In this document: in pieces, positions 33,364 to 53,440 of the stretch
Position numbering within the stretch: the stretch's first letter is position 1
Layout of the letters: each line of letters begins with the position of its first letter
From: Bacillota bacterium
Lineage (GTDB): Bacteria > Bacillota > Sulfobacillia > JAJZIM01
DNA length: 64,000 bases
Assembly (NCBI GenBank): GCA_021810565.1
Contig: JAJZIM010000009.1
Span: 1-64,000, forward strand
Direction of reading: 5' to 3'
Notes under the pieces: generated by a model
Told to the model about the DNA's origin: nothing
The model's input: the letters and a program-made list of their open reading frames with translations, nothing else
The model's database searches: none
Translations under genes and position numbers: made by a program

Positions 33364-33380
33364 CTGGGCCCCACCTCCCC

Positions 33381-33983: not shown

Positions 33984-33997
33984 GGCATCACCCCCCC

Positions 33998-34855: not shown

Positions 34856-35903
34856 TGCCGCCACCTCCCAGCAGAAAGGCCGCGATCCGGTTCGGGTCGG
34901 CCACCTCCAGGTCGTCGGGGACCTTCTGCCCCGTGGCCAGGTAGGATACGGGCACGCCCGTGCGCTCCACCAGGTTGGGCACCAGACCCCAGGCTTCCGC
35001 CTCGTCGGCCTTGGTGAAGAGCAGGCGCTGGAAGCCGGCGGCGTGGTACAGCTCCACCACCCGCAGTGCCTCCCGGGGACGGGTGGTGAGGGACAGCACC
35101 AGGTGCACCTCGCAGCTCCCGGCCGCCTCCAGGTAGCCCTTCAGCTCCGCCATCTGCATGGCGTTGTGGGGATTGCGACCCGCGGTGTCCAAAAGCACCA
35201 GGTCGGCTGACTTGTGCCGGGCCACGGCCTCCTTGAGTTCCGCGGGGGAGAAGACCACCTCCACCGGCACGCCGATGATCTCGCCGTAGGTCTTCAGCTG
35301 CTCCACGGCGGCGATGCGATAGGTGTCGGCGGTGATCATGGCCACCCGCCGGTGCTCCAACAGGGCGAAGCGGGCCGCCAGCTTGGCCAGGGTGGTGGTC
35401 TTGCCCACTCCGGTGGGCCCCACCAGGGCCACCACGTGGGGCCGCACCCCGTTCAGGGCCACGGGTTGGGGCGAACCCAGCACCAGGGTCAACTCCCGCA
35501 CCGCCTGCACCCGCGCCGTCCCGGGGTCCAGATCCCGGGGCGCGCCGTTCAACACCCGCTCGGACAGCCGGCGCGCCAACTCCTCCTCCACCTCCTGGGC
35601 CAGCAGGGCCTCATACACCGGGCGCAGCCCCTCCGGGTAGTTGCCCCGCGAAAGCAAGGCGCTGACCTGGCCGATGCTCTCCCGCAGTTGGGCCAACTCC
35701 CGGGATACTTGAAGGCTCTCCCTGCCCTCCCCGGGCTCCTCCAGGGCCGCGGTCACCTCCACCAAGGGGGGCTGGAGCCAGCCGGCCAGCCCGGGCCGGC
35801 GCACCCGCCGGGTGGATAGGAGCACCGCCTCCGGACCCAGTTCCCGGCGCACCCGAGCGGTGGCCTCCTGCACCGTCGGGGCCACGAAGCTGCGGATCCT
35901 CAT
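34848..35903 (-). CDS. flhF: SRP-type GTPase FlhF
   Basis: 351 residues. N-terminal basic domain, then a helical N domain, and the G domain with GPTGVGKTT at 162-170, LLDTAGRN and FTKADEAEAWG. It marks the site of flagellar assembly. The ATG overlaps the flhA stop by four bases. Confidence 0.94.
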   Translation of the reverse strand: MRIRSFVAPTVQEATARVRRELGPEAVLLSTRRVRRPGLAGWLQPPLVEVTAALEEPGEGRESLQVSRELAQLRESIGQVSALLSRGNYPEGLRPVYEALLAQEVEEELARRLSERVLNGAPRDLDPGTARVQAVRELTLVLGSPQPVALNGVRPHVVALVGPTGVGKTTTLAKLAARFALLEHRRVAMITADTYRIAAVEQLKTYGEIIGVPVEVVFSPAELKEAVARHKSADLVLLDTAGRNPHNAMQMAELKGYLEAAGSCEVHLVLSLTTRPREALRVVELYHAAGFQRLLFTKADEAEAWGLVPNLVERTGVPVSYLATGQKVPDDLEVADPNRIAAFLLGGGGNG

Positions 35904-37942: not shown

Positions 37943-37959
37943 GCCCCCTCAGCCTCCCC

Positions 37960-39018
37960 TCAGGCCCACCGGCGCAGCCGGTACACGAAGGCCAGGACCT
38001 CGGCCACCGCCTGGAACAGCTCGGCGGGGACCGGGTCACCCACCTCCACCGTGCGGTACAGGGCCTGGGCCAAGGGCTCGTTTTGCACCACCGGCACCCC
38101 GTGCTCCATCGCCAGTTGGGCGATGCGCCGGGCCACGAAACCCTGCCCCTTGGCCACCACCCGCGGCGCGTCCATCTCCCCCGGACGATAGACCAGGGCC
38201 ACGGCGTAATGGACGGGGTTGGTGATGACCACGTCCGCCCGGGGCACCTGGCTCATCATGCGCCGCAGGGCCAGACGGCGCTGCTCGGTCCTGAGCTTCT
38301 TCTTCAGGTGGGGCGACCCCTCGGTGTCCTTGAACTCCTCCTTGACCTCCTGGTCCGTCATGCGCAGGTTCTGCTCGTAATCATAGCGCTGGTAGAAATA
38401 GTCGAAGATGCCGAGGATCAAGAGGGCCACCCCGGCGCGCAGGCCCACGGCCAGGGCCAGTCCGGCGACCCGGCTCGCCCCCGCCACCGGATCGGTTAGC
38501 ATCAGGGCGGGAAGAGCAGCCAACTGCCCCGCCACCGCCGAGTAGGCCACCAGGGATACCGCCGCCACCTTGAACAGCCCCTCGGCCAGGTAGATCAGGG
38601 TCCGTCGGGAAAAGATGCGCTGCAGCCCGGTCAAAGGGTTCAGCCGGGTCAGGTCGAGGCGGGGTGAGCGGAACACCAGACCGGTCTGCAGCAGGGTCAC
38701 CCCCGTTCCCAGGAAGAACATGCCCAGCATGATCGGCAAGAGCACCGCCGCCAACAGCGAGAGCACCGCTTCGTACAGCGGCCACACCGGCCGCAAAGGA
38801 AAATGGTTCAGGTTGCCCAGGACCGTCACGGCGAAGGCGGCCAGGTGGTCCAGGACGGAGGTGCCCACCGCCCACAAGAGGCCCGTGCCCGCCAGGATGG
38901 CCAGGGCGGTGGTGACCTCCGGGGAGTGGAACACCTGTCCCCGGTTGCGGGCCTCCTGGCGCCGCCGGGGGCTGGGGGCATGGGTCTTCTCACCCTCGGC
39001 GAACAGCTGCAGATTCAT
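37960..39018 (-). CDS. flhB: Flagellar export switch protein FlhB
   Basis: 352 residues, four membrane segments and a cytoplasmic C-terminal domain. The self-cleavage site, normally NPTH, reads ITNPVHYAVAL here, so Thr is replaced by Val while Asn-Pro and His are kept. The substrate-specificity switch region RRIAQLAMEHGVPVVQNEPLA is normal. Its ATG overlaps the fliR stop (ATGA). Confidence 0.94.
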   Translation of the reverse strand: MNLQLFAEGEKTHAPSPRRRQEARNRGQVFHSPEVTTALAILAGTGLLWAVGTSVLDHLAAFAVTVLGNLNHFPLRPVWPLYEAVLSLLAAVLLPIMLGMFFLGTGVTLLQTGLVFRSPRLDLTRLNPLTGLQRIFSRRTLIYLAEGLFKVAAVSLVAYSAVAGQLAALPALMLTDPVAGASRVAGLALAVGLRAGVALLILGIFDYFYQRYDYEQNLRMTDQEVKEEFKDTEGSPHLKKKLRTEQRRLALRRMMSQVPRADVVITNPVHYAVALVYRPGEMDAPRVVAKGQGFVARRIAQLAMEHGVPVVQNEPLAQALYRTVEVGDPVPAELFQAVAEVLAFVYRLRRWA

Positions 39019-39770
39019 GCGCTACCTCCCACCGCACCCACCAGTTTCAGAAGTTGCCCGGCCATGCCGGCGAATACCGGCCGCAGGGCCAGGTCCATGG
39101 CCGGCAGGGATGCCAGCAGGATCAAGAGGCCAAAAGCCGCCTGCAGCGGCATGCCCAGGATGAACACGTTCAACTGGGGCACGGCCCGGGAGAGGATGCC
39201 CAGGGCCAGGTTCAGGATCAACAGCACCGCCAGCACGGGCATGGCCAGGGACAGGCCCAGGGTGAAAATGTCCGCGCCCCAGCCGATGAACAAAGGCAAG
39301 GTGCCCGCCCCCAGGTGGGCCGCCCCCAAGGGCAGCAGCCGGAAGCTGGCTCCCAGGGCCAAGAGCAGGCTCTCCAGGCCGCCGGAGACGATGAACAGCA
39401 CCAGGGCCACGAAATATAGCAGGTTGGTCAGGACGGGGGCAGGGGCGCCCATGGCCGGGTTCAGCACCTGGGACAGGCCGAAGCCCATCTGCAGGTCCAA
39501 GAGGCCGCCGGCATATTGCACACCCGCCAGGAGGAGGTTGACCACATAGCCCATGCCCAAGCCCACCAGCACCTCCTTTCCCGCCGCCAGAAGATAGGGC
39601 AAAAGGGCCGTCGGCACCGGGCCATGGCTCAGGGGAGCCAGGGCCATCCCCACCACCAGGCTGAGGGCGGTGCGCACCCACAGCGGCACCACGCCGCTGC
39701 CGAAGACGGGGGCCGCCAGGAAGAACCCCCCCACCCGCAGGATCGCCAGGAGATCCCTGCCCAGATCCAT
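39015..39770 (-). CDS. fliR: Flagellar export gate protein FliR
   Basis: 251 residues, about six membrane segments. LGMGYVVNLLLAGVQYAGGLLDLQMGFGL-type core lies in segments near residues 71-100, as in FliR. Part of the FliPQR export gate. ATG start, three bases after fliQ. Confidence 0.93.
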   Translation of the reverse strand: MDLGRDLLAILRVGGFFLAAPVFGSGVVPLWVRTALSLVVGMALAPLSHGPVPTALLPYLLAAGKEVLVGLGMGYVVNLLLAGVQYAGGLLDLQMGFGLSQVLNPAMGAPAPVLTNLLYFVALVLFIVSGGLESLLLALGASFRLLPLGAAHLGAGTLPLFIGWGADIFTLGLSLAMPVLAVLLILNLALGILSRAVPQLNVFILGMPLQAAFGLLILLASLPAMDLALRPVFAGMAGQLLKLVGAVGGSA

Positions 39771-39773
39771 GGC

Positions 39774-40043
39774 TTAGTGCAGGTAGCCCGACAGGTTGCC
39801 CAGGATCCCGCTGGCGAAACGGAGCAGCGTCTGCAGCATGAAGGGGCCGAAGATCAGCGCCGCCACGGCCACGGCCACGATCTTGGGCACGAAGGTCAAG
39901 GTCTGCTCGTTCAACTGGGTGGTGGTTTGGAAGATGCTAATCACCAGGCCCACCACCAGGGAGAGCACGAGCATCGGCCCGCCCACCACCAGGGCGATGA
40001 CGATGGCCTGCCGGGTCAGGGACAAGGCGGTGGTCTCGCTCAC
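39774..40043 (-). CDS. fliQ: Flagellar export gate protein FliQ
   Basis: 89 residues, two membrane hairpins, with the family pattern TRQAIVIALVVGGPMLVLSL and VGLVISIFQTTTQLNEQTLTF split around the turn. GTG start at 40043. Confidence 0.94.
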   Translation of the reverse strand: MSETTALSLTRQAIVIALVVGGPMLVLSLVVGLVISIFQTTTQLNEQTLTFVPKIVAVAVAALIFGPFMLQTLLRFASGILGNLSGYLH

Positions 40044-40056
40044 GCCGCATTCCCCC

Positions 40057-40827
40057 TTAATGGAAGCTGGACACCAGGGACTGTACCACCAGGGCCCAAC
40101 CGTCCACCAGCACGAACAGCAGGATCTTGAAGGGCATGGAGATCATCATCGGCGGCAGCATGAACATGCCCATGGACATCAGGGTGCTGGCCACCACCAT
40201 GTCGATCACCATGAAGGGAAGGAAGAGCAAAAAGCCCATCTCGAAGGCGATCTTCAGCTCGCTGGTGACGAAGGCCGGGATCAGCACATAGGTGGGCACG
40301 TCGTGGTGGGTCTTGGGCGGCGGCAGCTTGGCCAGTTTCACGAAGAGACCGAGATCGGCCTGGTCCGTCTGGCGGAACATGAAGTCCCGCAGGGGATGTA
40401 CCCCCGCCGTCAGGGCCTGGGCCGGGGGCAGTTTGCCCGCCAGATAAGGCTGGACCGCCTGGGTGTTCATCTGGTTCCAAACCGGCGCCATGGTGAAGAA
40501 GGTCAAAAAGAGGGCGAAGCCCACCAAAACCTGATTGGGCGGCGTGTTCTGGGTGCCCAGGGCGCTGCGCAGGAAGGACAGCACCACCACGATGCGGGTA
40601 AAGGAGGTCATGAGGATCAGGATGGCCGGGGCCAAGGACAGCACCGTGAGCAGAAACAGGATCTGCAAGGCCTGCGACACTTGGGTGGGCGAGGTGGCCG
40701 TCCCCACCCCGATGCGCAGGGTAGGCAGGGCCGGGATGGCCGGAATGGTCGACGCGGCCAGGGCGATACCCGGCAGGAGCAGCCCCATGCCTACCCCGAC
40801 CGGCAACCACCAGCGGCGCGCCCTCAA
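40057..40827 (-). CDS. fliP: Flagellar export gate protein FliP
   Basis: 256 residues: a cleavable signal-like start (LLLPGIALAA), then LTVLSLAPAILILMTSFTRI, LRSALGTQNTPPNQVLVG and the C-terminal membrane pair (FLLFLPFMVIDMVVASTLMS). The start is TTG at 40827, overlapping the fliO stop (TTGA) with GGGGAG 5 bases upstream. Confidence 0.94.
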   Translation of the reverse strand: MRARRWWLPVGVGMGLLLPGIALAASTIPAIPALPTLRIGVGTATSPTQVSQALQILFLLTVLSLAPAILILMTSFTRIVVVLSFLRSALGTQNTPPNQVLVGFALFLTFFTMAPVWNQMNTQAVQPYLAGKLPPAQALTAGVHPLRDFMFRQTDQADLGLFVKLAKLPPPKTHHDVPTYVLIPAFVTSELKIAFEMGFLLFLPFMVIDMVVASTLMSMGMFMLPPMMISMPFKILLFVLVDGWALVVQSLVSSFH

Positions 40828-41228
40828 TCGGGCTCCCCTCCCCGCACTCGCCGCGCCAGCTCCGACAGCTCCGCCAGCCGCCCCCGCCAGCCGGGACGGG
40901 AGGGGCTCCCCGGCCGGCGCGTCAGCCTTTCGGCCCAGGCGGGAAGCCGCAGCGAGGGGGGAGCCTCCCCTGGGGCGGCTTCGGGAACGGCATCGGGGGA
41001 CAGCTCGGCCAGCAGGGTGACCTCCTGGGCCACCCCCACCAAGAGCAGCCTGCCGGCGACCCGCAAAAGGTAGACCCCGCGGTTGCCGCCCAGGGACAAG
41101 GCCCCCTCCACCTGCAACCCGCTGCGACCGCCGGCGCGGGGCAGCCGGCCCGCCAGGCGCGCCGCGGCCCAGGCCAGGGCCACCACCAGGGCGAAGGCGA
41201 ACAGGAACCGCACCGCTTCCCAAAACAT
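40824..41228 (-). CDS. fliO: Flagellar biosynthesis protein FliO
   Basis: 134 residues with one N-terminal membrane segment (FLFAFALVVALAWAAARLAG) and the short FliO domain VEGALSLGGNRGVYLLRVAGR. It helps FliP assemble. ATG, 16 bases after fliN; stop overlaps fliP. Confidence 0.88.
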   Translation of the reverse strand: MFWEAVRFLFAFALVVALAWAAARLAGRLPRAGGRSGLQVEGALSLGGNRGVYLLRVAGRLLLVGVAQEVTLLAELSPDAVPEAAPGEAPPSLRLPAWAERLTRRPGSPSRPGWRGRLAELSELARRVRGGEPD

Positions 41229-41244
41229 GCCGGGATGCCCCCTC

Positions 41245-41715
41245 TCAGGTCAGATGGTGTACCCGCTCGGCAGGACTCTTGATCTCGGTGATGCGCACGC
41301 CGAAATTCTCGTCGATGACCACCACTTCCCCCTTGGCCACCGGCCGGCCGTTGATCAGCACGTCCACCGCTTCGCCAGCCAGCTTGTCCAGCTGCAGCAC
41401 CGATCCGGCGTTGAGGGTCAGCACCTCCCGCAGCTTGCGCCGGGCGCGTCCCAGCTCCACGGTAACGCTCAGGGGCACCTCCAGCAGAAAGTCGATACGC
41501 CCCTGGGCCGACGAAGGAACGGGAGCGTCCTCGGTCAAGGGGGGAAACTGGGCCGCCTGCACCTCCACCGCCGGTTCCTCCGGCGAGAACGCCGCCGCCT
41601 CGGCGGCGACCGGTTCGGCTTTCTCCTCTTCCTCCTCCACCGCCTGGGCCCCGGGCTCCTGCACCGCCTTGATCAGAGCGTCTATCTCCTCCTGGGAGAG
41701 CATCTCGTCAGCCAC
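41245..41715 (-). CDS. fliN: Flagellar switch protein FliN with N-terminal CheY-binding motif
   Basis: 156 residues. Residues 5-14 read MLSQEEIDALI, the phospho-CheY-binding motif normally found at the start of FliM and of Bacillus FliY. An acidic linker (about 20-65) follows, then a single SpoA/FliN domain (LEVPLSVTVELGRARRKLREVL... EGV-like end). There is no CheC-like middle domain as in FliY. GTG start with GGAGGTGG; overlaps fliM by 8 bases. Confidence 0.92.
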   Translation of the reverse strand: MADEMLSQEEIDALIKAVQEPGAQAVEEEEEKAEPVAAEAAAFSPEEPAVEVQAAQFPPLTEDAPVPSSAQGRIDFLLEVPLSVTVELGRARRKLREVLTLNAGSVLQLDKLAGEAVDVLINGRPVAKGEVVVIDENFGVRITEIKSPAERVHHLT

Positions 41716-42652
41716 CGGCTTCCACCTCCTCCTCCTCTTCCTGCACCGCCGTGACCCGCACCGCCAGGTGCCGATGCAAGGTGCCGGGCCGGCCTCGGAA
41801 GCGGCAGATGCCCTCCACCTGCACCGTCAACTCCCCCTTGACCGGCGCCTGCAGGCGCAGCACGTCCCCCACCTCCAGAGTCAACAGCTCCCGCAGCGTG
41901 AGCCGGGTGGAGCCCAGGGTCACGGACAGCTCCACCGGCACCTCTCCCACCTCCAGTTCCAGTTGACGCTCGCTCTCCTCGCCCGTGGCCGCCGTCTCCC
42001 CCTGTTGGACCAGCAGCCACTGCTGGGGAGAAAGCTTGGGCAGCACCGGCTCCAGGAGCAGGTAAGGCATGCAGAAGTACACCTGCCCCCGCTGCGCCCC
42101 CAGACGCACCTCCAGGGTCACCGTGAGCACCATCTCGTTGGGAGCCACCACCTGGGCGAAAAGGGGGTTGGACTCCATGGAGTCGAGGGAAGGGGTCAGG
42201 TCCACGATGCCCCGCCACCCGTCGGCCAGGTTGGCCAGAAGGCCGGTCAGCACCCGCTGCATCACCGTCTGCTCGATCTCGGTGAGGGGCCGCACCCGCT
42301 CCGGCACCCCGCCCGAGCCCCCCAAGAGGCGATCCAGCATGGCGAAGGCGATGATGGGATCCGTCACCAGCAGGATCTTGCCCTTGAGGGGCGGCAGACC
42401 CACGATGCCGATGATGGAGGGGGTGGACACCGTGCTCAGAAACTCGCCGTAGGTGCTTTGTTCCACCGACAGGACATTGAATTGCACGGTACCCCGCAGA
42501 TAGCCGGAGAAATAGGTGGTGCAAAGCCGCGCCACATGCCCGTAGAGCATCTCCACCGTGCGCATCTGGTCCTTGGAGAACTTGTCCGGACGGCGGAAGT
42601 CGTACACCCGCACCCTAAGCGGCTTTCCCCGCACCCCCATCGGCATCGCCAA
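41708..42652 (-). CDS. fliM: Flagellar switch protein FliM lacking the N-terminal CheY-binding motif
   Basis: 314 residues. After a short start it goes straight to RVRVYDFRRPDKFSKDQMRT, the beginning of the CheC-like middle domain (GGxG as LLGGSGG near residue 109). It ends with a SpoA domain. The usual LSQxEIDALL motif is missing and cannot lie further upstream, because fliL ends 12 bases away. TTG start at 42652 with GGAGGGGAG. Confidence 0.93.
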   Translation of the reverse strand: MAMPMGVRGKPLRVRVYDFRRPDKFSKDQMRTVEMLYGHVARLCTTYFSGYLRGTVQFNVLSVEQSTYGEFLSTVSTPSIIGIVGLPPLKGKILLVTDPIIAFAMLDRLLGGSGGVPERVRPLTEIEQTVMQRVLTGLLANLADGWRGIVDLTPSLDSMESNPLFAQVVAPNEMVLTVTLEVRLGAQRGQVYFCMPYLLLEPVLPKLSPQQWLLVQQGETAATGEESERQLELEVGEVPVELSVTLGSTRLTLRELLTLEVGDVLRLQAPVKGELTVQVEGICRFRGRPGTLHRHLAVRVTAVQEEEEEVEAGG

Positions 42653-42664
42653 GGTCTCCCCTCC

Positions 42665-43081
42665 TCACTCCACCATGAAGGTAGTGAAATATACCTTGAG
42701 GACCTTGCCGTGGGTGAGAACCCGGTCCACGGCGGCGGCCACGGCCGTCTGCAGGCTGCCCATCCCCGCGCTGCCGGACACCTCCTGGGGGGTGCGGGAG
42801 CGCAACACGGCCAGGATGGCGTCGTCCACCTGCGCCTTTTCCGCCTTGAGCTGGGCCGTGGCCCCCGTTCCCCGCACCTTCAACTCGATGTCCACCTTGA
42901 TGTAGCGCGTGGTCACCGGATCGTCTAGGTTGGTCAGGAAGGAACCCGCGTCGTACAACTGCACCGCGGGCGCAGGCTTGGGCACCAGCTTGGCCAGGGG
43001 GCCCGCCCGGATGTGCAGGAGGAACACGGCCGCCGTGGCCAGGACCAAGACCCCCACCAGGATCAGCAGCACCTTTTTCAA
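42665..43081 (-). CDS. fliL: Flagellar basal body-associated protein FliL
   Basis: 138 residues: one N-terminal membrane segment (VLLILVGVLVLATAAVFLL) and the FliL domain (FLTNLDDPVTTRYIKVDIEL, ending in VYFTTFMVE). It supports the stator and motor torque. The TTG start overlaps the flbD stop (TTGA). Confidence 0.92.
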   Translation of the reverse strand: MKKVLLILVGVLVLATAAVFLLHIRAGPLAKLVPKPAPAVQLYDAGSFLTNLDDPVTTRYIKVDIELKVRGTGATAQLKAEKAQVDDAILAVLRSRTPQEVSGSAGMGSLQTAVAAAVDRVLTHGKVLKVYFTTFMVE

Positions 43082-43323
43082 AAGCCACCACCTCCCCTCG
43101 CGACGGGCAGAGTCCGGACGGGGGTGTCGCCCCCGCCCGGCAGCCCGTGGATCCGGCGGCGGTAGCGGATGACCAGCTCGATCACCTGGGCGGGCGTCTC
43201 CTCCACCAAGAGCTTCTTGCCGGTGGTGAGGGTGATGATCGTGTCGGGGGTGGCCTCCACCGTCTCGATGAGGTCCGCGTTGAGCACGAAGGGCTCGCCC
43301 CGCATCCGCCGCAGGTTGATCAC
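43078..43323 (-). CDS. flbD: FlbD/SwrD-family flagellar protein
   Basis: 81 residues. INLRRMRGEPFVLNADLIETVE and TPDTIITLTTGKKLLVEET-type segments are the FlbD signature. In Bacillus the homologue SwrD increases motor power. The tail (residues 62-81, Gly-rich) is longer than usual. GTG start. Confidence 0.9.
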   Translation of the reverse strand: MINLRRMRGEPFVLNADLIETVEATPDTIITLTTGKKLLVEETPAQVIELVIRYRRRIHGLPGGGDTPVRTLPVARGGGGF

Positions 43324-43342
43324 GCCGCTCTCCTCCCCTCCG

Positions 43343-44638
43343 CTACGGCACCTGGTTCAGGGTGTTGAGGGTCTGCAGCACCAGGTTGTCGGCCCCCACC
43401 ACCTGGGAGTCGGCCTGGAAGGCCCGCTCCGCCGTGATCATGTTGACGAACTCCGTGGACAGGTTGACGTTGGACATCTCGAGAGAACCCGGGGCGATGC
43501 TGCCCCGCCCGCCGGTGTTGGCCGCTCCGACGGCCGCCGGGCCGGAGTTGTTGGACACGGCATACAGCCCGTTGCCCTGATCCTGCAACCCGGTGGGGTT
43601 GGAGAAGTTGGCCATGGCCACCTGGGCCAGTTCCTCGCGCTGGCCGTTGGTGAAGATGCCGGTGATCACCCCCGAGGGGTCCACGCTGACCTGCTCCAGG
43701 GTGCCCGGGGCGTAGCCGGTGACGTCCCCCGCCGTCAGCTGGGCCTGGGTGAGGGTGCTCTGGGTCACCGTGGTGGGAGCGGCGTACTGGGTCATCCCCG
43801 ATAAATCGAAGCCGCCGGAGATGGTCGACGCCCCGTCGGCCAGGGAGCCGGTAGGCGGGATGATGAAGCTGCCGCTGGTGGTGCCCGAGGTCACCGCCCC
43901 GCTGGCGGTGAAGCCGACGCTGCCACTGCCCACGCTCACCGGTGACGTGGCCCCGCTGACCAAGCTGGCCGGCACCGTGGCGTCCCAACTCCAGGTGTTG
44001 GCCGCCGTCTTGTCGAAGGTGACGGTGACCGGCACCAGGTTCCCCAGGGAGTCGTAGGCGTCGGCCAGGGCCGTGCGGGTGGTTCCGGTCGAGTCGTTGG
44101 AGTTCAGGTTGCCGGTCAGGGCCAACCCCGTGGTGGCCTGGGGCGCGATGGACTCTCCCTGCTGGATCTGGATGTTGCTCATGTTGGCCGCCGTGGTGGC
44201 GGGGAAGGTGCCGCTGGCGGTGGCCTGCCAGCCCTGCACCAACAGGCCGGCCGGGTTCACCAGGTTGCCGTTGGCGTCCAGGTTGAAGGCCCCCGCCCGG
44301 GTGTACATGTCCACCCCGTTCTGACTCGCCACGAAGAAGCCGTTGCCCTGGATGGCCATGTTCAGCGGGTTGCCGGTGGTCTGCAGGCTGCCCTGGGACA
44401 TGTTCGGGGTGATGGCCGCCGTGGATACCCCCAGCCCCACCTGCATGGGGTTGGTGCCGCCGTGGGTGGCGGTGGGGGCGCTGGCCCCTGCCAGCATCTG
44501 AGTGAACAGGTCCTGGAAGGTGATGGAACTGGCCTTGAAGCCTACGGTGTTCACGTTGGCGATGTTGTTGCCCACCACATCCAGGGCCGTCTGCATATTC
44601 TCCAGGCCGGATACGGCCGAAGAAAGCGATCGCAGCAT
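43343..44638 (-). CDS. flgE: Flagellar hook protein FlgE
   Basis: 431 residues. The N-terminal rod-hook motif is ALDVVGNNIANVNTVGFKAS and the C-terminal one is NVNLSTEFVNMITAERAFQA, with a Thr/Ser/Gly-rich variable middle. Forms the hook. ATG start. The upstream 84 bases to the TIGR02530 gene show no promoter. Confidence 0.94.
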   Translation of the reverse strand: MLRSLSSAVSGLENMQTALDVVGNNIANVNTVGFKASSITFQDLFTQMLAGASAPTATHGGTNPMQVGLGVSTAAITPNMSQGSLQTTGNPLNMAIQGNGFFVASQNGVDMYTRAGAFNLDANGNLVNPAGLLVQGWQATASGTFPATTAANMSNIQIQQGESIAPQATTGLALTGNLNSNDSTGTTRTALADAYDSLGNLVPVTVTFDKTAANTWSWDATVPASLVSGATSPVSVGSGSVGFTASGAVTSGTTSGSFIIPPTGSLADGASTISGGFDLSGMTQYAAPTTVTQSTLTQAQLTAGDVTGYAPGTLEQVSVDPSGVITGIFTNGQREELAQVAMANFSNPTGLQDQGNGLYAVSNNSGPAAVGAANTGGRGSIAPGSLEMSNVNLSTEFVNMITAERAFQADSQVVGADNLVLQTLNTLNQVP

Positions 44639-44722
44639 CTCGTCAATCCCTCCTTAAGAACGGCGCGGCGGCCGCTTCGATCGTTCCGCGGCCGGTGGGC
44701 CCCCCTCGCGGGTCCGGCCCGT

Positions 44723-45070
44723 TCACAGGATCACCGCGCTGTCGATATGCGTGAAGACACCCTCGTGCATGCGCGCCCCCGTCACGGCGGTGACCACCGT
44801 GCGGTTGGGCACGCTCACCACCAGCGCCAAGTCGCGACACACGATCAGGGAATCCCGCGCGCCTTTGGCCGCCGCCCGATCCACCGCGTCGCCGACGCGC
44901 TGCGCCAGTTCCGCCGGAAGCTGGACTCCCGCCAACCGCTGGGCGGCGTGACTCGAGACCCGCATCCGATCCGCCAGCACCGCCGCGAAGTTGCCGCCGC
45001 CCTTGCTCGGGCGTGCCCCCTCGGGAGCCTTGCCGGAAAGCGGCCCGATCCCACCGACCGGGCCGGTCAC
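44723..45070 (-). CDS. Flagellar operon protein, TIGR02530 family
   Basis: 115 residues. SSHAAQRLAGVQLPAELAQRVGDAVDRAAAKGARDSL-type core in segments and the end VVSVPNRTVVTAV and GVFTHIDSAVIL fit the TIGR02530 family found between flgD and flgE in Bacillota. Function not established. GTG start overlapping the flgD stop. Confidence 0.82.
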   Translation of the reverse strand: MTGPVGGIGPLSGKAPEGARPSKGGGNFAAVLADRMRVSSHAAQRLAGVQLPAELAQRVGDAVDRAAAKGARDSLIVCRDLALVVSVPNRTVVTAVTGARMHEGVFTHIDSAVIL

Positions 45071-45486
45071 GACGACACCTCCTGCAGTTGGCTCAAGGAC
45101 ACCTGCTGGCCGCCCACGTCCAGTTGCACCTGTCCGCTGGAGACGCTGACCCCAGTGACCGTCCCCGAAGCCACGGCGCCCGTGGCGGCGTCCTGGTAGG
45201 TGACGGCCTTGCCCAACAGTTGCGCTCCCGTGGCCAGGCTCTGGGCCTGGGTCAGGCCGCTGAATTGCTGACTCAATTGGGCGATCTGCTGCATGGTGGA
45301 GAACTGGGCCAGCTGGGCGATGAACTGGGTGGAATTCACGGGCTGGGACGGGTTCTGGTACTGCAGCTCCGCCGCCAGCAGTTGCAGGAACTGATTCTGC
45401 AATTGCTGAGGACTGGCGCTGCTCAGGGGCCCGATGCCGGAGCTGCCCGTGCCCGAGCCGGATCCCAACGGATTAATGCTCGACAT
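45067..45486 (-). CDS. flgD: Hook-capping protein FlgD
   Basis: 139 residues. The core is QNQFLQLLAAELQYQNPSQP and FIAQLAQFSTMQQI, the FlgD signature; the C-terminal part is short, as in Bacillus FlgD. Scaffold for hook assembly. ATG start. Confidence 0.9.
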   Translation of the reverse strand: MSSINPLGSGSGTGSSGIGPLSSASPQQLQNQFLQLLAAELQYQNPSQPVNSTQFIAQLAQFSTMQQIAQLSQQFSGLTQAQSLATGAQLLGKAVTYQDAATGAVASGTVTGVSVSSGQVQLDVGGQQVSLSQLQEVSS

Positions 45487-45501
45487 GCGATCACCTCCTC
45501 G

Positions 45502-46746
45502 CTACACCACCAGATTCAACATCCCGCCGTTGGGCACCGACACCGCCGCGGGATCGCTTCCCGCCGGCACCGCGACGGCCAGCCGCAGCACGGCGGACCG
45601 CCCCGAGCGCCGCCCCTCCTGCGGTGGACCGCGGTGCGGCTCGCCGCCCCCGGACATCAGGGACAGGGTCAGGTTTTGGACGTTGACGCCGGCCTGGGAC
45701 AGGCTCTCCCGTAGTTGCGGCAGTTGAGCGGACAGGGCGGTCTGTGCCTGGGCATGGGCCACCGTGATCTGCACGCTGACGCCCCCGTCCTGGGCCACCA
45801 GTCGGACCTGGACCTCCCCCAGGTGGGGCGGTTCCAGCTGAGCCCGAAAGGTGGTCTGCCCCGCGGTGCGCAGGACGTGCACGTGGGCCAGGACCATCTC
45901 CGCCAGGGGGTGGCTGCCGCTCGCCGGCGTCTCTTGAACCGGGCCGGCCCACACCGCCGAGCGCACAGCGAAGGTTGGGACGCCCAGGGCCTGCGCCGGA
46001 GGGGTGCTCTGGCTCGGCGCGGCGGTCGCTTGGGACGCGGCTTTGGCTGCCGGAGTGCTTCCGGCGGCCTTGGCTGCCGGAGCGTTCCCTGCGGTCTTGG
46101 GTGCGGGGGACGCCGTGGCGCTCGACCTGCCGCCCTGGGGGGCCGGGAGGCTTCCCGCCGCCGGTTGCGCGGTCCCGACCGGGGCGGCCCGCTGCGACAC
46201 GGGCGGTTTGGCCGCCGGAGCGCTCGCCGTCGTACCCGGCATCGCCGGCGCCGGGGCCTGGTTCGCCTGAGCCGATCGGATGGTCCCTGCCTGCGGGACC
46301 GGGGCGGATGACGGTCCATCCGAAGCGCTACCCGTCCGTTCGGACGGAAGGGCAAGGGATGCCGTCGCCGACGCCGACTGCGCCGTCTCGGCGGTCCGGA
46401 CCGGGCCCTCCCCTTGCGCCGAGGGCTTGCCGCGTGGCGAGGCGGCTGCGGCCGGAAGCTGGGGCACCACCGCGATCAGGGACGCCCCCAAAGCCGACGA
46501 CTGGGGCGCCGCCCGGGTCTTGGCCGCGGGAGCCTTGCCTGCCGGGGTCTTGGACGGCGGGGTCTTGCCGCGGCCTCCGCCGGCCAGCGCCAGCAGCGAG
46601 GCGAAGGGGACCGATGTCGGACCGTTCGTCAGGACGGCGAGGCCGTCCAGGGGCGAAGTCTTCCCCGCGGGTCCCCCGGTGATCGGAGCCTTGCCCCGGG
46701 CGGGGGCCGCAGGGACGGGGCTTGGGGTCACCATCTGTGCTCCCAT
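45502..46746 (-). CDS. fliK: Flagellar hook-length control protein FliK
   Basis: 414 residues. A long Ala/Pro/Ser-rich low-complexity region (about 1-265) containing PAAKAAGSTPAAKAA-type repeats leads into the Flg_hook domain (RAQLEPPHLGEVQVRLVAQD near residue 318, then SQLPQLRESL-like end). It measures the hook and switches export specificity through FlhB. ATG with SD AGGAGGTGA. Repeat-rich DNA here is prone to length change. Confidence 0.9.
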   Translation of the reverse strand: MGAQMVTPSPVPAAPARGKAPITGGPAGKTSPLDGLAVLTNGPTSVPFASLLALAGGGRGKTPPSKTPAGKAPAAKTRAAPQSSALGASLIAVVPQLPAAAASPRGKPSAQGEGPVRTAETAQSASATASLALPSERTGSASDGPSSAPVPQAGTIRSAQANQAPAPAMPGTTASAPAAKPPVSQRAAPVGTAQPAAGSLPAPQGGRSSATASPAPKTAGNAPAAKAAGSTPAAKAASQATAAPSQSTPPAQALGVPTFAVRSAVWAGPVQETPASGSHPLAEMVLAHVHVLRTAGQTTFRAQLEPPHLGEVQVRLVAQDGGVSVQITVAHAQAQTALSAQLPQLRESLSQAGVNVQNLTLSLMSGGGEPHRGPPQEGRRSGRSAVLRLAVAVPAGSDPAAVSVPNGGMLNLVV

Positions 46747-46777
46747 CGCTTATCACCTCCTTTCCGCAGCTCATCCT

Positions 46778-47212
46778 TCAAGCGGGTCGGTTGCGGCGGC
46801 TCTCGTCCAGTTCCTTTTGCTCCGCGCGGCCCTCCTCGATCCGGTGCTCCGCGCGGCGACGCTTGCGCAACCGCTCCAAGGATTCGCGCTCCCGCCAGGC
46901 GCGGGCCAGGATCCGCCGCTGCTCCTCCAGGGCGTCCTGGGCGCGCTCCAAACTCTCGCGCTGGCGGGCCAACTGTCCATCCACCCAGGCCAGGCGGCTG
47001 ATCCACATGGACTGCTCCTCCGGAGATACCGTCCCCAGCCGTCCCTGTCGGGAGCCCTCCCGGGCCGTGCTATATGCCTGGTGCAGCCGCTTAAGCTCCC
47101 GGTCCTCCCGCTGGCAGGTGCGCAGGTGGTCCGCCAAGGCCTCCTGTTCCCGCCCCACGCGAAGCCGCTTGACCTCCAGGACCCGCTGCAGTCGAAACCG
47201 GAAAACCTTCAT
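46778..47212 (-). CDS. fliJ: Flagellar export chaperone FliJ
   Basis: 144 residues, almost entirely coiled coil, with the FliJ start FRFRLQRVLEVKRLRVG. Stalk of the FliI ATPase complex. The start overlaps the fliI stop by four bases. The motE/ylxF gene that follows fliJ in Bacillus is absent; fliK comes directly next. Confidence 0.88.
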   Translation of the reverse strand: MKVFRFRLQRVLEVKRLRVGREQEALADHLRTCQREDRELKRLHQAYSTAREGSRQGRLGTVSPEEQSMWISRLAWVDGQLARQRESLERAQDALEEQRRILARAWRERESLERLRKRRRAEHRIEEGRAEQKELDESRRNRPA

Positions 47213-48540
47213 GCCGCCACGCCTCCCTCATCCAAGAGCCCCCGCAGGGCGGTCTGGGCATCGGCGTACCCCACCCGCTGGTCGGTGCCCTGGCGCAGGT
47301 AGTCCCAGACCCGTTCGATCAACCGCTGCGCCCGGTCGATGCGGGGGTTGGAGCCGGGAGCGTAGGCGCCGATGTTGATCAGGTCCTCCGCCTCCCGCCA
47401 AGTGGCCAGCACCTCCCGCACCGCATCGGCCGCGTGCGCCTGCCAGGGCTCCACCACGTCCGGCATCACCCGGCTCACGCTCTGCAAGAGATCCACCGCC
47501 GGGTAGATGCCCCGATTGGCCAGCTCCCGGGACAGCACGATATGTCCGTCCAGGATGCCCCGCACCGCGTCGGCCACCGGCTCCGTCAGGTCGTCCCCGT
47601 CCACCAGCACACTGTAGAATCCGGTGACGCTCCCCCGCTCACCGGTACCGGAGCGCTCCAAAAGGCGCGGCAAAAGGCCGAAGACCGAGGGGGGATAGCC
47701 CCTGGTGGTGGGCGGCTCGCCCACCGCCAAACCCACCTCCCGCTGCGCCATGGCGAAACGCGTGACCGAATCCATCAGCAGCACCACGTCCATCCCCTGG
47801 TCCCGGTAGTATTCGGCGATGGCCGTGGCCGCCAGCGCCGCCTTGATCCGGACCAGCGCCGGCTGGTCCGAGGTGGCCACTACCACCGTGGAGCGCTTCA
47901 GACCGGAGCCCAGATCCTTCTCCAGGAACTCGCGCACCTCGCGGCCCCGCTCTCCCACCAAGGCGATGACGATCCGCTCGGCCTCGGTGTTGCGGGCGAT
48001 CATCCCCAGGAAGGTGCTCTTGCCCACACCGGTGCCCGAGAAGATGCCCACCCGCTGTCCCCGGCCGCAGGTCAATAGGCCGTCCACGCTGCGCACCCCC
48101 AGGGAGAGGGGACTGGTGATGCGCTGGCGCTTCAGGGGGGCGGGGGGCAGCCCCTGGGCGGAGCGCAGTTCCTCCACCGCCAGCGGGCCCCGGTCGTCGA
48201 TGGGACGGCCCAAGGCGTCCAGCACCCGGCCGGCCAGGGCAGGCCCGACCCCCACTCGAAAGCCGGTGCCGCTGGCCACCACCTCGCTGCCCGGCCCGAT
48301 TCCCTCCATCTCGCCCAGGGGCATCAGGATCACCTTGCTGCCCCGAAAGCCCACCACCTCCGCCGGCACCTGGGCACCGCCGCGGGATTGCAGGTGGCAT
48401 AGCTCCCCCAGACTCACCGTCGGACCGTGGGACTCGATGGTGAGCCCGATGACCTGGTCCACCCGGCCATGCAGGAGGATGGGATCGGTCTCCCGCACCG
48501 ACCGCGCCAGGTGCTCCCAGAAGGCTACTCCCTCAGGCAT
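47209..48540 (-). CDS. fliI: Flagellum-specific export ATPase FliI
   Basis: 443 residues. F1-beta-like ATPase with SGTGVGKST at 168-176, the Walker B stretch DVVLLMDSVTRFAMAQREV and GEPPTTRGYPPSVF. Energises or unfolds export cargo with FliH and FliJ. Overlaps fliH by 8 bases. Confidence 0.95.
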   Translation of the reverse strand: MPEGVAFWEHLARSVRETDPILLHGRVDQVIGLTIESHGPTVSLGELCHLQSRGGAQVPAEVVGFRGSKVILMPLGEMEGIGPGSEVVASGTGFRVGVGPALAGRVLDALGRPIDDRGPLAVEELRSAQGLPPAPLKRQRITSPLSLGVRSVDGLLTCGRGQRVGIFSGTGVGKSTFLGMIARNTEAERIVIALVGERGREVREFLEKDLGSGLKRSTVVVATSDQPALVRIKAALAATAIAEYYRDQGMDVVLLMDSVTRFAMAQREVGLAVGEPPTTRGYPPSVFGLLPRLLERSGTGERGSVTGFYSVLVDGDDLTEPVADAVRGILDGHIVLSRELANRGIYPAVDLLQSVSRVMPDVVEPWQAHAADAVREVLATWREAEDLINIGAYAPGSNPRIDRAQRLIERVWDYLRQGTDQRVGYADAQTALRGLLDEGGVAA

Positions 48541-49222
48541 CTTCCTCCACCGCCTTCAATGCGGCCTGCTCCAGGACCGCCAACATCCGCCCCACCCGGG
48601 CGTCCACGTTGCCGCCCGCCCCCTCCACCACCGCGCTGCCCGGTTCCAGTTCGCCATCCTCCACCAGGTTCAGGGAGCGGGCATCCCCCGCGTAGGTCAA
48701 GAGCGCCTGCCGGTGCCCCTGCAGGATGGGCAGGTCCGCGCCGCTCACCCGCACCGTCAGTTCCCCGGCCCCCTGCGCCCGGCGCAGGGCCTCTCCCACC
48801 ATGCCCACCACCACCTCCGGCTCGATGGCCAGCTCTTGATGCACCACCTGGCGGGCCACGGTCAGGGCCACGCGGGCCAACTCGGTGCGGGCCTCCCGCA
48901 GCAGTTGGGCGCGCTCCCGCTCCCCCTCCTCCCGGATGGCCAGGGCCTGAGCCAGGATCTCCCGGGCCTGGGGTCGGACCTCCTCCAGCCCCTCCCGGCG
49001 CCCCTGGGTCCGGCCCTCCTCCCGCGCCGCCGCGCGCAGCCTATCCGCCTCCTTCCGGGCCACCGCCACGATATCCTCGGCCGTTGCCTCGAAGGGCTCC
49101 TCCGACACCGGGGCGGGGGGCGGGGTGAAAAGGCCCTCCTCCCGCTCGGTGGGCGCCTCCACGGGCCAGATGCCGCTGCGCTGCACCCGTTCGGCCTTGA
49201 TCAGTCTAGACAATGATCTCAT
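48533..49222 (-). CDS. fliH: Flagellar assembly protein FliH
   Basis: 229 residues: a variable N-terminus, a long Glu/Arg/Ala coiled coil (about 45-120) and the FliH C-terminal domain (VALTVARQVVHQELAIEP... AVVEGAGGNVDARVGRML in segments). Regulator of FliI. The ATG lies inside fliG (17-base overlap). Confidence 0.9.
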   Translation of the reverse strand: MRSLSRLIKAERVQRSGIWPVEAPTEREEGLFTPPPAPVSEEPFEATAEDIVAVARKEADRLRAAAREEGRTQGRREGLEEVRPQAREILAQALAIREEGERERAQLLREARTELARVALTVARQVVHQELAIEPEVVVGMVGEALRRAQGAGELTVRVSGADLPILQGHRQALLTYAGDARSLNLVEDGELEPGSAVVEGAGGNVDARVGRMLAVLEQAALKAVEEDA

Positions 49223-50228
49223 CCTCCCCGCCCCGGGAGATCACGATCTCCCCCGCCTCCTCCAGGCGGCGGATGGTGTTCACGATGCGCTGCTGCGCCT
49301 CCTCCACATCCCGCAGGCGCACCGGCCCCAGGAAATCCATGTTCTCCCGCAGGGTCTCCCCGGCGTGTTTGGAGATGTTCTGAACGATCTTCTCCTTCAC
49401 CTCGTCGCTGGCCACCTTGAGGGCCAGGGGCAGGTCCTTGCCCAGATCCACATCCCGCAGCACCCGCTGCAAAGAGCGGTTGTCCAAGATCACTACGTCC
49501 TCGAACACGAACATGCGCTTCTTGATCTCTTCCGCCAGCTCCGGCTCTTCCTGCTCCAGGTTCTCCATGATGCTCTTCTCCGTGGAGCGGTCCACCCGGT
49601 TTAAGACGGCCACCGCCGCCTCGATGCCGCCCGCCGCCGTATATTCCTGGCTCCAAAGGGAGGAGAGCTTGCGCTCCAGCACCTTCTCCACCTGCTGGAT
49701 GATCTCGGGAGCGGTGCGGTCCATGGTCGCCAGGCGCTTGGCCACCTCCGCCTGCAGGCTGGTGGGCAGGGACTGCAGGATGACGGCGGCCTGCTCCGGC
49801 TGCAGGTAGGCCAGGATGAGGGAGATGGTCTGAGGATGCTCGTTTTGAATGAACCCCAGGACCTGGGACGGATCGGTCCGCCGCACGAACTCGAAGGGGC
49901 GCACTTGTAGGGTGGCGGTGAGCCGATCCAGGATCTCCATGGCCTTCTGGGTGCCCAGGGCCCGCTCCAGAAGGTCCTTGGCGTAGTCCAGGCCGCCGTG
50001 GGCGAGATAGTCCTTGGCCACCGACAACTCGTGGAACTCGTCGATCACCTTCTCGCGCACCTCGGGCTGAACGTTGCGCAAAGAGGCGATCTGCAGGGTG
50101 ATCTGCTCGATCTCGTCGTCGGAGAGATGGCGAAAAACCTTGGAGGACAACTCTGGCCCCAGCGCGACCAGCAGGGCCGCCGCCTTTTCCTTTCCCGACA
50201 GACCGTGCTTGGCGCCGGTGGTCGCCAT
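49206..50228 (-). CDS. fliG: Flagellar motor switch protein FliG
   Basis: 340 residues. N domain (KEKAAALLVALGPELSSKVFRHL), middle domain with the EHPQTISLILAYLQPEQAA motif (EHPQ near residue 129) and the C-terminal torque helix region (IKKRMFVFEDVVILDNRSLQ) with alternating charges. Complete. ATG start, 7 bases after fliF. Confidence 0.96.
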   Translation of the reverse strand: MATTGAKHGLSGKEKAAALLVALGPELSSKVFRHLSDDEIEQITLQIASLRNVQPEVREKVIDEFHELSVAKDYLAHGGLDYAKDLLERALGTQKAMEILDRLTATLQVRPFEFVRRTDPSQVLGFIQNEHPQTISLILAYLQPEQAAVILQSLPTSLQAEVAKRLATMDRTAPEIIQQVEKVLERKLSSLWSQEYTAAGGIEAAVAVLNRVDRSTEKSIMENLEQEEPELAEEIKKRMFVFEDVVILDNRSLQRVLRDVDLGKDLPLALKVASDEVKEKIVQNISKHAGETLRENMDFLGPVRLRDVEEAQQRIVNTIRRLEEAGEIVISRGGEDEIIV

Positions 50229-50235
50229 CAGTGCC

Positions 50236-51765
50236 TCACTCTTCCTTCATCCACGCGCGCACGATGTCCGCCACGTTCTCGGGCTTCTGCCGGGCCATGC
50301 CCTCCACCTCTTCGCGCTTTCTGATACGCTGCTGCTCCTCGGGGGACAGCGGCGGCGCGGGGGCCGCCTCTTCCCGGCCCGTGGGGATCGCCGCCCGGTG
50401 CGAAGGCGCCTTCGACCGTCGCCGCAGGAGCATGAGCGCCGCCACCAGCAGGACCGCAAGGATCGCGCCCTCGCCCGCCATCTGCACCAGGTTGCGCTGT
50501 TGGGTGGCCGAGCGCTCGGCGTTCATCTGCTTCTGCAACGCCTTGGTGAGGGTGGTGTTGAAGGGCATGCCGGTGACGGTGATCTGGTCCTGGCGGGCCG
50601 GGTCGGATCCCACCGCCGAGGCCACCAGGTTCTGAATCGCCCGCCGCTGGGTGGCGCTGAGGTTCTGATTGACCACCACCGCCACCGAGAGGCGGCGCAC
50701 CGCCCCGGGCACGATCCGGGTGGTGCTGTCCACCTGGCTCACGTCGAAGCTCTGGTTGGTCTGGGTCTTGGCGTAGGTGGAGGTGCCGGTGTTCCCCGTC
50801 ACGGCGGGATAGGTGGAGATGTTGGACTTGGTCCCCGGCACCCCGCCCGGCACCTGCCCGGTGCCGCTGAAGGTCTCTTTCAGGGCCTGCTCGCTCTTCA
50901 AGATCCCCTGGCCGTTGGCGGTGGGTTGGAATATCTTTCGGGTGACGGTGCCGGGGTTGAAGTTCAGGGTGGCCGTCACCTGGGTGGCCACGTTGCCCGG
51001 CCCCAGCACCTGGGACAGCAGGGTCTGCAGCTTGCCTTGCAGCTCGGTGTCCACCTTCTGCGCCAGGGCCAGGTCGCCCGTGGCGGCGCTGGTGCCGGCC
51101 CCCGTGCCGGCGGCCGATAGCACCTGCCCCAGGTTGTCCACCACCACCACGTTCTTGGTGGAAAGTCCCTGGACGCTATGGGCCACCAGGTTGACCACGG
51201 CCCGCACCTGGCCCGAGGATAGCTGGGCCGTGGGCTCGAGCTTCAGGAAGACGGCCGCGGTGGCCGGCTGGGTCTGACTGGTGAAGACGCTGGGCTTGGG
51301 CAGGACCAGTTCCACCCGGGTGGCCTGCACCCCGGACATCTGGTTCAGGGTGCGGTCCAACTCCCCTTCCAGGGCCTGCAGGTACTCCACGTGCTGCTGG
51401 AAGCTGGACATGCCCAGCTGATTCTGCTGAAAGATGCTGAAGCCCACGGTGCCCTGGTTGGGCAGACCCGCGGCCGCCATGGACAGGCGCGCCTGGGCCG
51501 CCTGGGGCTGGGGCACCGAGACGGCGGTGCCGCCGGCGGAGAGGCGGTAGGGGATCTTGGCATCGCCCAGCTTCTTGACGATGGCCGCCGCGTCGGTGGG
51601 CTGCAGGTTGGTGAAGACGCTCACGTAGGGCTGGCCCACGCTGGCCCGGGCGACCAGGAACACCACCAGCACCAAGAGGAGCAGCGCCGCCCCCCCCGCC
51701 AGCACCCGCTGATTGGGTGGCATATTCAAGAAGTAGCCCCGTACCCGCTCCACCCAGCTCTTCAT
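50236..51765 (-). CDS. fliF: Flagellar MS-ring protein FliF
   Basis: 509 residues: a membrane segment near 25-45, ring-building domains (YVSVFTNLQPTDAAAIV; LEGELDRTLNQMSGVQATRVEL in segments), a second membrane segment near 438-458 and a cytoplasmic C-terminus for FliG binding (KPENVADIVRAWMKEE). ATG start. Confidence 0.95.
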   Translation of the reverse strand: MKSWVERVRGYFLNMPPNQRVLAGGAALLLLVLVVFLVARASVGQPYVSVFTNLQPTDAAAIVKKLGDAKIPYRLSAGGTAVSVPQPQAAQARLSMAAAGLPNQGTVGFSIFQQNQLGMSSFQQHVEYLQALEGELDRTLNQMSGVQATRVELVLPKPSVFTSQTQPATAAVFLKLEPTAQLSSGQVRAVVNLVAHSVQGLSTKNVVVVDNLGQVLSAAGTGAGTSAATGDLALAQKVDTELQGKLQTLLSQVLGPGNVATQVTATLNFNPGTVTRKIFQPTANGQGILKSEQALKETFSGTGQVPGGVPGTKSNISTYPAVTGNTGTSTYAKTQTNQSFDVSQVDSTTRIVPGAVRRLSVAVVVNQNLSATQRRAIQNLVASAVGSDPARQDQITVTGMPFNTTLTKALQKQMNAERSATQQRNLVQMAGEGAILAVLLVAALMLLRRRSKAPSHRAAIPTGREEAAPAPPLSPEEQQRIRKREEVEGMARQKPENVADIVRAWMKEE

Positions 51766-51792
51766 CCTGTCCCTCCACCCCTCCCACCCGGG

Positions 51793-52074
51793 CTACAGCT
51801 GCATCTGCATGACTTGGTTGTAGGCGGTGAGGAGTTTGTTGCGCACCTGCACCGTGAGTTCCAGGGCCAAATTGGCCTTGTCCGTCGCCGTAACCACCTG
51901 CACCAGGTCCGCCTTCCCCGCCAGGGCCTGGCGCACCTCCTGCCCCGCCGTAAGCTGCAGGTCGTTGACCTGACCGAGAGCCTTCATGAACAGTTCCTGG
52001 AAGCCGGCCTGACCCTTCTTGCCGCCCGCGGCGGGGGTGGCGACGGGAGGCAGCCCCAGAGAGCCTATGCGCAT
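51793..52074 (-). CDS. fliE: Flagellar hook-basal body protein FliE
   Basis: 93 residues with GFQELFMKALGQVNDLQ and ELTVQVRNKLLTAYNQVMQMQL-like ending (C-terminal VxNKLxxAYxxxMxM). Links MS ring and rod. The ATG at 52074 is preferred: GGAGG is 8 bases upstream, while ATG 52080 and GTG 52083 are too close to the SD. Confidence 0.92.
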   Translation of the reverse strand: MRIGSLGLPPVATPAAGGKKGQAGFQELFMKALGQVNDLQLTAGQEVRQALAGKADLVQVVTATDKANLALELTVQVRNKLLTAYNQVMQMQL

Positions 52075-52088
52075 CGGCATCACCTCCC

Positions 52089-52490
52089 CTATGCCCGCAG
52101 CACGCCGAGGATGGTGCCGTCCACGGCCTTCTCGTCGGTGGTGGCGGTCACGTTGGCCTCATAGGAGCGGCTGGCGGACACCAGATCCGTCATCTCCTTA
52201 ACCGGGTTCACGTTGGGATAGTAGACGTAGCCCTGGGCGTTGGCGTTGGGGTTACCCGGCTCGTACACCGGCTTCAGTGCCGAAGGATCGGCCACGATGC
52301 CGGTGACCATCACCCCGTCCCCGAAGGAGCCGCCGGGCCGGGGCGCGAACTGCACCAACAGGCGCCGGTAGGCGGGCCGGGTGGCCGTGGAGTGGGTATC
52401 CATGTTGGCCAGGTTGTTGGCGATGACGTTCAGGCGCAGCCGCTGGGCGGTCAGGGCCGATCCGCTGATGTCAAAGGCGCGGAAGATCAT
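52089..52490 (-). CDS. flgC: Flagellar basal-body rod protein FlgC
   Basis: 133 residues. Rod motif RLRLNVIANNLANMDTHS near residue 17, YPNVNPVKEMTDLVSASRSYEANV near the end. ATG overlaps the flgB stop by four bases. Confidence 0.94.
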   Translation of the reverse strand: MIFRAFDISGSALTAQRLRLNVIANNLANMDTHSTATRPAYRRLLVQFAPRPGGSFGDGVMVTGIVADPSALKPVYEPGNPNANAQGYVYYPNVNPVKEMTDLVSASRSYEANVTATTDEKAVDGTILGVLRA

Positions 52491-52828
52491 GTGATCACCC
52501 CCGTGCCGTTGATGACCAGCCCCAATCGCGCGAAGGCGTTGCGCAGCTCACCGGACATGGTCTGCTGCATTAGGGTGTTCTTGGCCAGGAGGGTCATCTG
52601 CTGGTCCACGCTCACGTTGTTGCCGTCATTGCGCTCCACGGTGCCGGTGAGGGACGCCACCCGGGGCCCCTGTCCGGCCAGAGCGCGGCGCAGGTTCGCC
52701 GCGAAGGGCACCGTCTCGGCCTTGTACCCGGGGGTGTCGATGTTGGCCAGGTTCTGGGCGATGGCCCGGGCCCGCCACCCGGCCACCTCCAGGCCCGCTC
52801 CGGACAGGGTCAAAAGGGACGTCTGCAA
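52487..52828 (-). CDS. flgB: Flagellar basal-body rod protein FlgB
   Basis: 113 residues. RARAIAQNLANIDTPGYKAE is the rod motif; VSVDQQMTLLAKNTLMQQ follows. The TTG start at 52828 is fixed by GGAGG 8 bases upstream; longer frames run into the riboswitch leader. First gene of the flagellar operon. Confidence 0.92.
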   Translation of the reverse strand: MQTSLLTLSGAGLEVAGWRARAIAQNLANIDTPGYKAETVPFAANLRRALAGQGPRVASLTGTVERNDGNNVSVDQQMTLLAKNTLMQQTMSGELRNAFARLGLVINGTGVIT

Positions 52829-52858
52829 GGTAACCGCCTCCTTTCCCGCGTAACGAAC

Positions 52859-52902
52859 GAGGGACAGCTCTCCCCGGGTCCGCCGTGGAAGAGCCGCCCC
52901 TC
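52859..52902 (-). terminator. Expression-platform hairpin of the proximal c-di-GMP riboswitch
   Basis: Arms GAGGGGCGGCTCT and AGAGCTGTCCCTC pair over 13 positions with three G-T pairs. The following GTTCGTT is only weakly T-rich, so it may terminate weakly. The SD of flgB lies about 20 bases downstream and is outside the stem. Confidence 0.55.
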
Positions 52903-52907
52903 CAGTT

Positions 52908-52991
52908 TCGGCAACCCGGCCGTCATTGCCTCGCAGGGCTTTAGACCCGATGGTTTTGCGCCGCCGCCTTTCGGTCGGCTTTGCCCTTTCG
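52908..52991 (-). promoter_or_regulatory. c-di-GMP-I (GEMM) riboswitch aptamer, proximal copy
   Basis: In order on the minus strand: AAGGGCAAAGCC, CCGAAAGG (GAAA tetraloop), GGCGCAAAACC, GGGTCTAAAGCCC, AATGACGGCCGGGTTGCC. These are the conserved GEMM-I elements, including the tetraloop and the CGGGTTGCC receptor side. It is nearly identical to the distal copy 163 bases upstream. Confidence 0.9.
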
Positions 52992-53018
52992 CTCCTTCCC
53001 GATCCCGCCGTCCCCACC

Positions 53019-53064
53019 AAAAGAGGGACGGTCCTCCGGGTTGCCTCCGGAAGCTCCGTCCCTC
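53019..53064 (-). terminator. Intrinsic terminator of the distal c-di-GMP riboswitch
   Basis: GAGGGACGG and CCGTCCCTC form a 9-bp outer stem with an inner CCGG/CCGG pairing region, followed directly by TTTTGG. It lies between the two aptamers, so transcription must pass it before the second switch. Confidence 0.8.
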
Positions 53065-53070
53065 CAGAAT

Positions 53071-53154
53071 TCGGCAACCCGGCTGTCATTGCCCCGTAGG
53101 GCTTTAGACCCGATGGTTTTGCGCCGCCGCCTTTCGGTCGGCTTTGCCCTTTCG
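53071..53154 (-). promoter_or_regulatory. c-di-GMP-I (GEMM) riboswitch aptamer, distal copy
   Basis: Same ordered core as the proximal copy; differences lie mainly in the P3-side stem (CTACGGGGC versus CTGCGAGGC) and in ATGACAGCC, which is the consensus form. It begins about 30 bases after the putative flagellar-operon start site. Confidence 0.9.
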
Positions 53155-53215: not shown

Positions 53216-53269
53216 CTGCCCCAACAAAATTTTTTATGAGCTGGCACACCCATCCCCTTGCCAGCGATT

Positions 53270-53440
53270 TTAGCGCCGGCGGGAACGGTGCCGAGGCCGG
53301 CGCAATCGCCTTCCCAGGGACACCGCCCCCAGGACCAAGATCCCCAGCAGGAAGGCCAAGGCGGCCAGGATCCGGGGCAGGCGGGCCCAGGGGAAGCCCG
53401 TCGAGGAATAGTAGTGGTGGTAATAGGCCAAGAAGTGCAT
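53270..53440 (-). CDS. Small single-pass membrane protein (56 residues)
   Basis: ATG at 53440 with a very strong SD (GGAGGGAGGGGGG). The peptide starts MHFLAYYHHYYSSTGFPWA, has one membrane segment (about residues 24-42) and ends in a strongly basic tail (RRLRRPRHRSRRR). No family recognised. It follows the 77-residue gene by 24 bases and precedes the flagellar leader. Confidence 0.55.
   Translation of the reverse strand: MHFLAYYHHYYSSTGFPWARLPRILAALAFLLGILVLGAVSLGRRLRRPRHRSRRR

Follow-up and report, generated by a model that had tools for sequence, protein, structure and literature searches.

The best-known case of a c-di-GMP-I riboswitch acting on flagellar genes is that of Clostridioides difficile, in which a single switch, Cd1 (Cdi1_3), is established to control the flgB operon by premature transcription termination (PMC3649979, PMC6366702). 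Serial arrangements of the same sensor are also on record. The triple c-di-GMP-I riboswitch Bc3-5 from Bacillus thuringiensis gives tighter and more digital control than do its component switches (PMC4759541), and according to the main text of a catalogue of serial riboswitches, c-di-GMP-I provides the most numerous same-class examples known (347 doublets and 12 triplets), while a serial model of independent switches predicts a steeper, pseudo-cooperative response (PMC9481103).

Here, we analyzed a stretch of 64,000 nucleotides from a genome of the class Sulfobacillia (G000; the whole stretch is referred to as the window), and we propose, at a probability of roughly 0.7, that its flgB leader consists of two serial c-di-GMP-I riboswitches that arose by local duplication and act as a two-stage OFF gate. 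The arrangement resembles Cd1 (PMC3649979, PMC6366702) in its aptamer class, in the position of the switch directly before flgB, in having sigD within the operon, and in the predicted OFF control by premature termination; it differs in that two switches stand in series instead of one, the leaders are unrelated, and the organisms belong to different classes of Bacillota. With Bc3-5 (PMC4759541) it shares putatively complete serial units that each have their own hairpin, whereas Bc3-5 comprises three ON switches before a surface-protein operon and was tested experimentally. Like the catalogued c-di-GMP-I doublets, which combine two same-class units with separate platforms, the window has two aptamers and two hairpins; the main text of the catalogue names no flagellar operon, and the pair described here, or that of genome G002 (see below), may be listed in its supplements (PMC9481103). 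Our literature search, limited to main texts, found no described c-di-GMP-I doublet at a flagellar operon. Both the sensor type and serial doubling are already known, and it is doubling at the flgB operon that is rare.

A covariance search of the window with RF01051 (c-di-GMP-I) returned two full-length minus-strand matches directly upstream of flgB, 163 nt apart and both exceeding the gathering score of 35 (Table 1). The earlier note on this DNA had claimed two nearly identical GEMM-I aptamers in series before flgB, at positions within a few bases of those found here, and had called for such a search; the two strong matches bear out this claim, and the near identity holds as well, given that the aptamers are 94% identical, with 5 mismatches over 89 positions, 2 of them at the 5' edge. 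Their binding cores are identical. Position 20 is G in each (both read GGGCAAA), and both carry a GAAA tetraloop (CGAAAGG). On the basis of these ligand-contact bases, c-di-GMP is the predicted ligand of both aptamers.

Table 1. Positions of the features of the flgB leader and operon in the window
Feature	Position	Strand	Description
Possible promoter TCGGCA-16-TAAAAT	53267..53294	-	Matches the consensus at only 9 of 12 positions
Aptamer 1 (upstream unit)	53158-53070	-	RF01051, 77.2 bits, E 2e-13 over the whole window; G20 present
Aptamer 1 3' strand CCGGGTTGCC	53073..53082	-	Predicted to pair either within the ligand-bound aptamer or with GGCAACCCGG; perfect 10-nt complement downstream
Unit 1 terminator	53064-53019	-	Hairpin 53064-53023, -29.6 kcal/mol, then TTTT
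Unit 1 antiterminator strand GGCAACCCGG	53036..53045	-	Inside the terminator hairpin; perfect 10-nt complement of CCGGGTTGCC
Aptamer 2 (flgB-proximal unit)	52995-52907	-	RF01051, 68.5 bits, E 2.6e-11
Unit 2 terminator-like hairpin	52902-52849	-	Hairpin 52902-52859, -34.9 kcal/mol, then poor U-tract GTTCGTTACG
Unit 2 candidate antiterminator strand GGCGGACCCGG	52874..52884	-	Interrupted complement of 52919-52910; same place as in unit 1
flgB ribosome binding site AAAGGAGG	52837..52844	-	Sequence upstream of TTG 52828
flgB	52487..52828	-	TTG start at 52828; TIGR01396 FlgB, 67.3 bits, above cut-off
Flagellar gene run, flgB to sigD	32605..52828	-	26 genes, from Pfam and NCBIfam matches and spacing; putatively co-transcribed

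An extra U (CCAUCGGG) is common to both leader aptamers and absent from the other four c-di-GMP-I aptamers of the genome, and therefore points to an origin of the pair by local duplication. Within the pair, identity falls from 94% in the aptamers to 71% in the platforms and 46% in the upstream flanks, which fits selection on both aptamers, with gene conversion as another possible cause; after a recent duplication, aptamer identity can also outlast function. One base pair has been lost in one stem of aptamer 2.

The platform of unit 1 has the layout of a transcriptional OFF switch, namely, a clean terminator with TTTT, as the earlier note had described it, and a predicted antiterminator that uses the 3' strand of the aptamer. 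The leader hairpins were located with a custom scan; a simple terminator scan gave none, as its loop limit of 8 was too short. A complement as long as that in unit 1 occurred in only 5 of 5000 platform shuffles, and one of equal duplex strength in 9 of 2000. The modelled energies of the two alternative states are -65.5 (aptamer plus terminator) and -63.4 (antiterminator), and such a small difference (about 2 kcal/mol) is as expected of a switch. We infer from this layout that the logic is OFF, with the terminator forming when ligand is bound.

According to the mechanism we propose, binding of c-di-GMP would hold the 3' strand of the aptamer, allowing the hairpin behind it to form and halt transcription; in the unbound state, this strand would instead act as an antiterminator by pairing with the hairpin's loop side, and polymerase would read from flgB through sigD. 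Since read-through would require both units to be unbound, high c-di-GMP should turn flagellum synthesis off with a tighter and somewhat steeper response than a single switch could provide. For two identical and independent OFF switches, read-through is calculated as the product of the two, the 10-90% ligand range narrows from 81-fold to 40-fold, and the threshold is lowered. A steeper response from the serial pair, which the earlier note had raised as one option, is thus plausible, and poor termination at unit 2 would reduce the gain from doubling. Unit 1 would probably do most of the stopping, with unit 2 as a weaker second checkpoint.

Unit 2 repeats the order of parts seen in unit 1, and its hairpin is the stronger of the two, its pairing having been kept despite sequence change. 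A hairpin thus follows each aptamer, and unit 2 lacks a good T tract, both as anticipated in the earlier note: in the tail GTTCGTTACG, the longest T run is two. On a U-tract scale, unit 2 reaches 1.33 compared with 2.68 for unit 1. This weakness is not unique, since the 40 flgB-leader units of the class that have a strong nearby hairpin (the two in the window included) span 0.82-4.13, and the U-tracts behind several single flgB switches are equally weak. The candidate antiterminator of unit 2 is at chance level, with equally strong pairing in 453 of 2000 shuffles.

These features of unit 2 allow a reading in which only unit 1 works, unit 2 being a recent duplicate whose weak or decaying platform adds little. 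The poor U-tract, the chance-level antiterminator, and the lost aptamer base pair all favor it, as does the predominance of single switches in the class. However, the binding core of unit 2 is unchanged though its platform has diverged, its hairpin exceeds that of unit 1 in strength, and U-tracts just as weak are found behind some single switches elsewhere in the class; we regard this reading as unlikely. The preferred two-stage gate must also be weighed against a dual mechanism, in which unit 1 acts by intrinsic termination and unit 2 through a termination factor or at the level of translation or RNA stability, so that one signal would have two thresholds. The strong hairpin that, lacking a good U-tract, lies just upstream of the flgB ribosome site would suit such a division of labor, and single-ligand pairs of this kind are known for SAM, as given in the catalogue of serial riboswitches (PMC9481103). 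In the folding models of unit 2, however, ligand binding did not mask the flgB ribosome site: the modelled unpaired probability changes little between states (0.58 versus 0.39, from folding energies that are themselves uncertain), and masking by unit 2 was rejected. The earlier note had raised both a different mechanism for unit 2 and a two-threshold gate. Neither proposal is supported by our results, given that the two units are alike in layout and ligand-contact bases and that similarly weak U-tracts follow single flgB switches; we consider a dual mechanism quite improbable.

The ligand itself could also differ, with one or both aptamers sensing 3',3'-cGAMP instead of c-di-GMP. An A at position 20 is linked to 3',3'-cGAMP binding, and it is found in flgB-leader aptamers of two relatives (L053 2803-2888 in G017 and L078 502-592 in G019). 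Both window aptamers, by contrast, have G20 and identical binding cores, which makes this reading highly improbable for the window, and we retain c-di-GMP as the predicted ligand of the serial pair. Within the genus of G017, ligand preference may have switched, since its congeners L054 and L059 have G at position 20. A further aptamer with A at this position (AAGAGCAAACG) lies in another relative, at L035 1501-1586 (G059, strand -).

To place the doubled leader among its relatives, we built a class covariance model from 32 class aptamers and ran it on 124 flgB upstream stretches of other genomes. A strong c-di-GMP-I match was present in at least 71 of these, a lower bound because some stretches end at contig ends; a weak match in L170 was left out, and two of the counted stretches (L042 and L046) have the aptamer about 2.5 kb upstream of flgB. 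Judging from these matches, regulation of flgB by a single c-di-GMP-I switch is common in the class. In four leaders of family f6 (L041, L051, L052, and L073), the aptamer has no clear nearby hairpin with a T-run, and these leaders may use another expression platform.

Two aptamers before flgB occur among the 124 stretches only in G002 (L063, L096), where they likewise stand in series directly before the gene. The G002 copies are 75% identical, and the nearest match of each lies in another genome; the window aptamers are each other's nearest, the next nearest aptamer being 83% identical. The contrast in pair identity (94% versus 75%) and in nearest matches led us to reject a common ancestry of the two doubled leaders and indicates a separate or much older origin for that of G002. 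Doubling of the flgB leader thus appears to be rare and probably has separate origins, most simply two. The same-order relative G001 was considered as an outgroup and proved uninformative, with one aptamer and no match to the window FliG. Scanning 154 class and 399 phylum genomes with a serial-aptamer pattern yielded further doublets, among them just one before flgB, that of G002, although this pattern undercounts and missed the window pair itself owing to its spacing and middle G. One serial c-di-GMP-I pair of the class lies elsewhere than before flgB (L251, G011 C16:290-583), with a 282-codon open frame starting close behind the second core.

Downstream of the leader lies a same-strand run of 26 genes that begins with flgB and ends with sigD at 32605, in line with the earlier note, which had expected no fewer than 26, sigD among them. 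The order is flgB, flgC, fliE to fliK, flgD, a gene for a small flagellar protein, flgE, flbD, fliL, fliM, fliN, fliO, fliP, fliQ, fliR, flhB, flhA, flhF, flhG, a PilZ-domain gene, and sigD. Neighbors overlap or are separated by at most 31 nt, with a single exception of 84 nt, and all 26 genes are presumably co-transcribed. The PilZ-domain gene before sigD suggests a possible second point of action of c-di-GMP, at the motor. Since the genome has 21 GGDEF and 28 HD-GYP domain matches above cut-off, both synthesis and degradation of c-di-GMP are to be expected. No EAL domain match was found in the whole genome, and c-di-GMP breakdown seems to depend on HD-GYP enzymes alone. The window also contains an FMN riboswitch (RF00050, 23507-23368 on the minus strand, 97.8 bits), behind which come a hairpin and a T run, immediately upstream of the start of a ribD-like gene; this arrangement is ordinary.

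Because a single switch before flgB is common in the class and a few lineages have doubled it, the class offers a natural comparison of single and double control at the same operon, in which one may ask whether serial riboswitches sharpen the decision to swim or settle.
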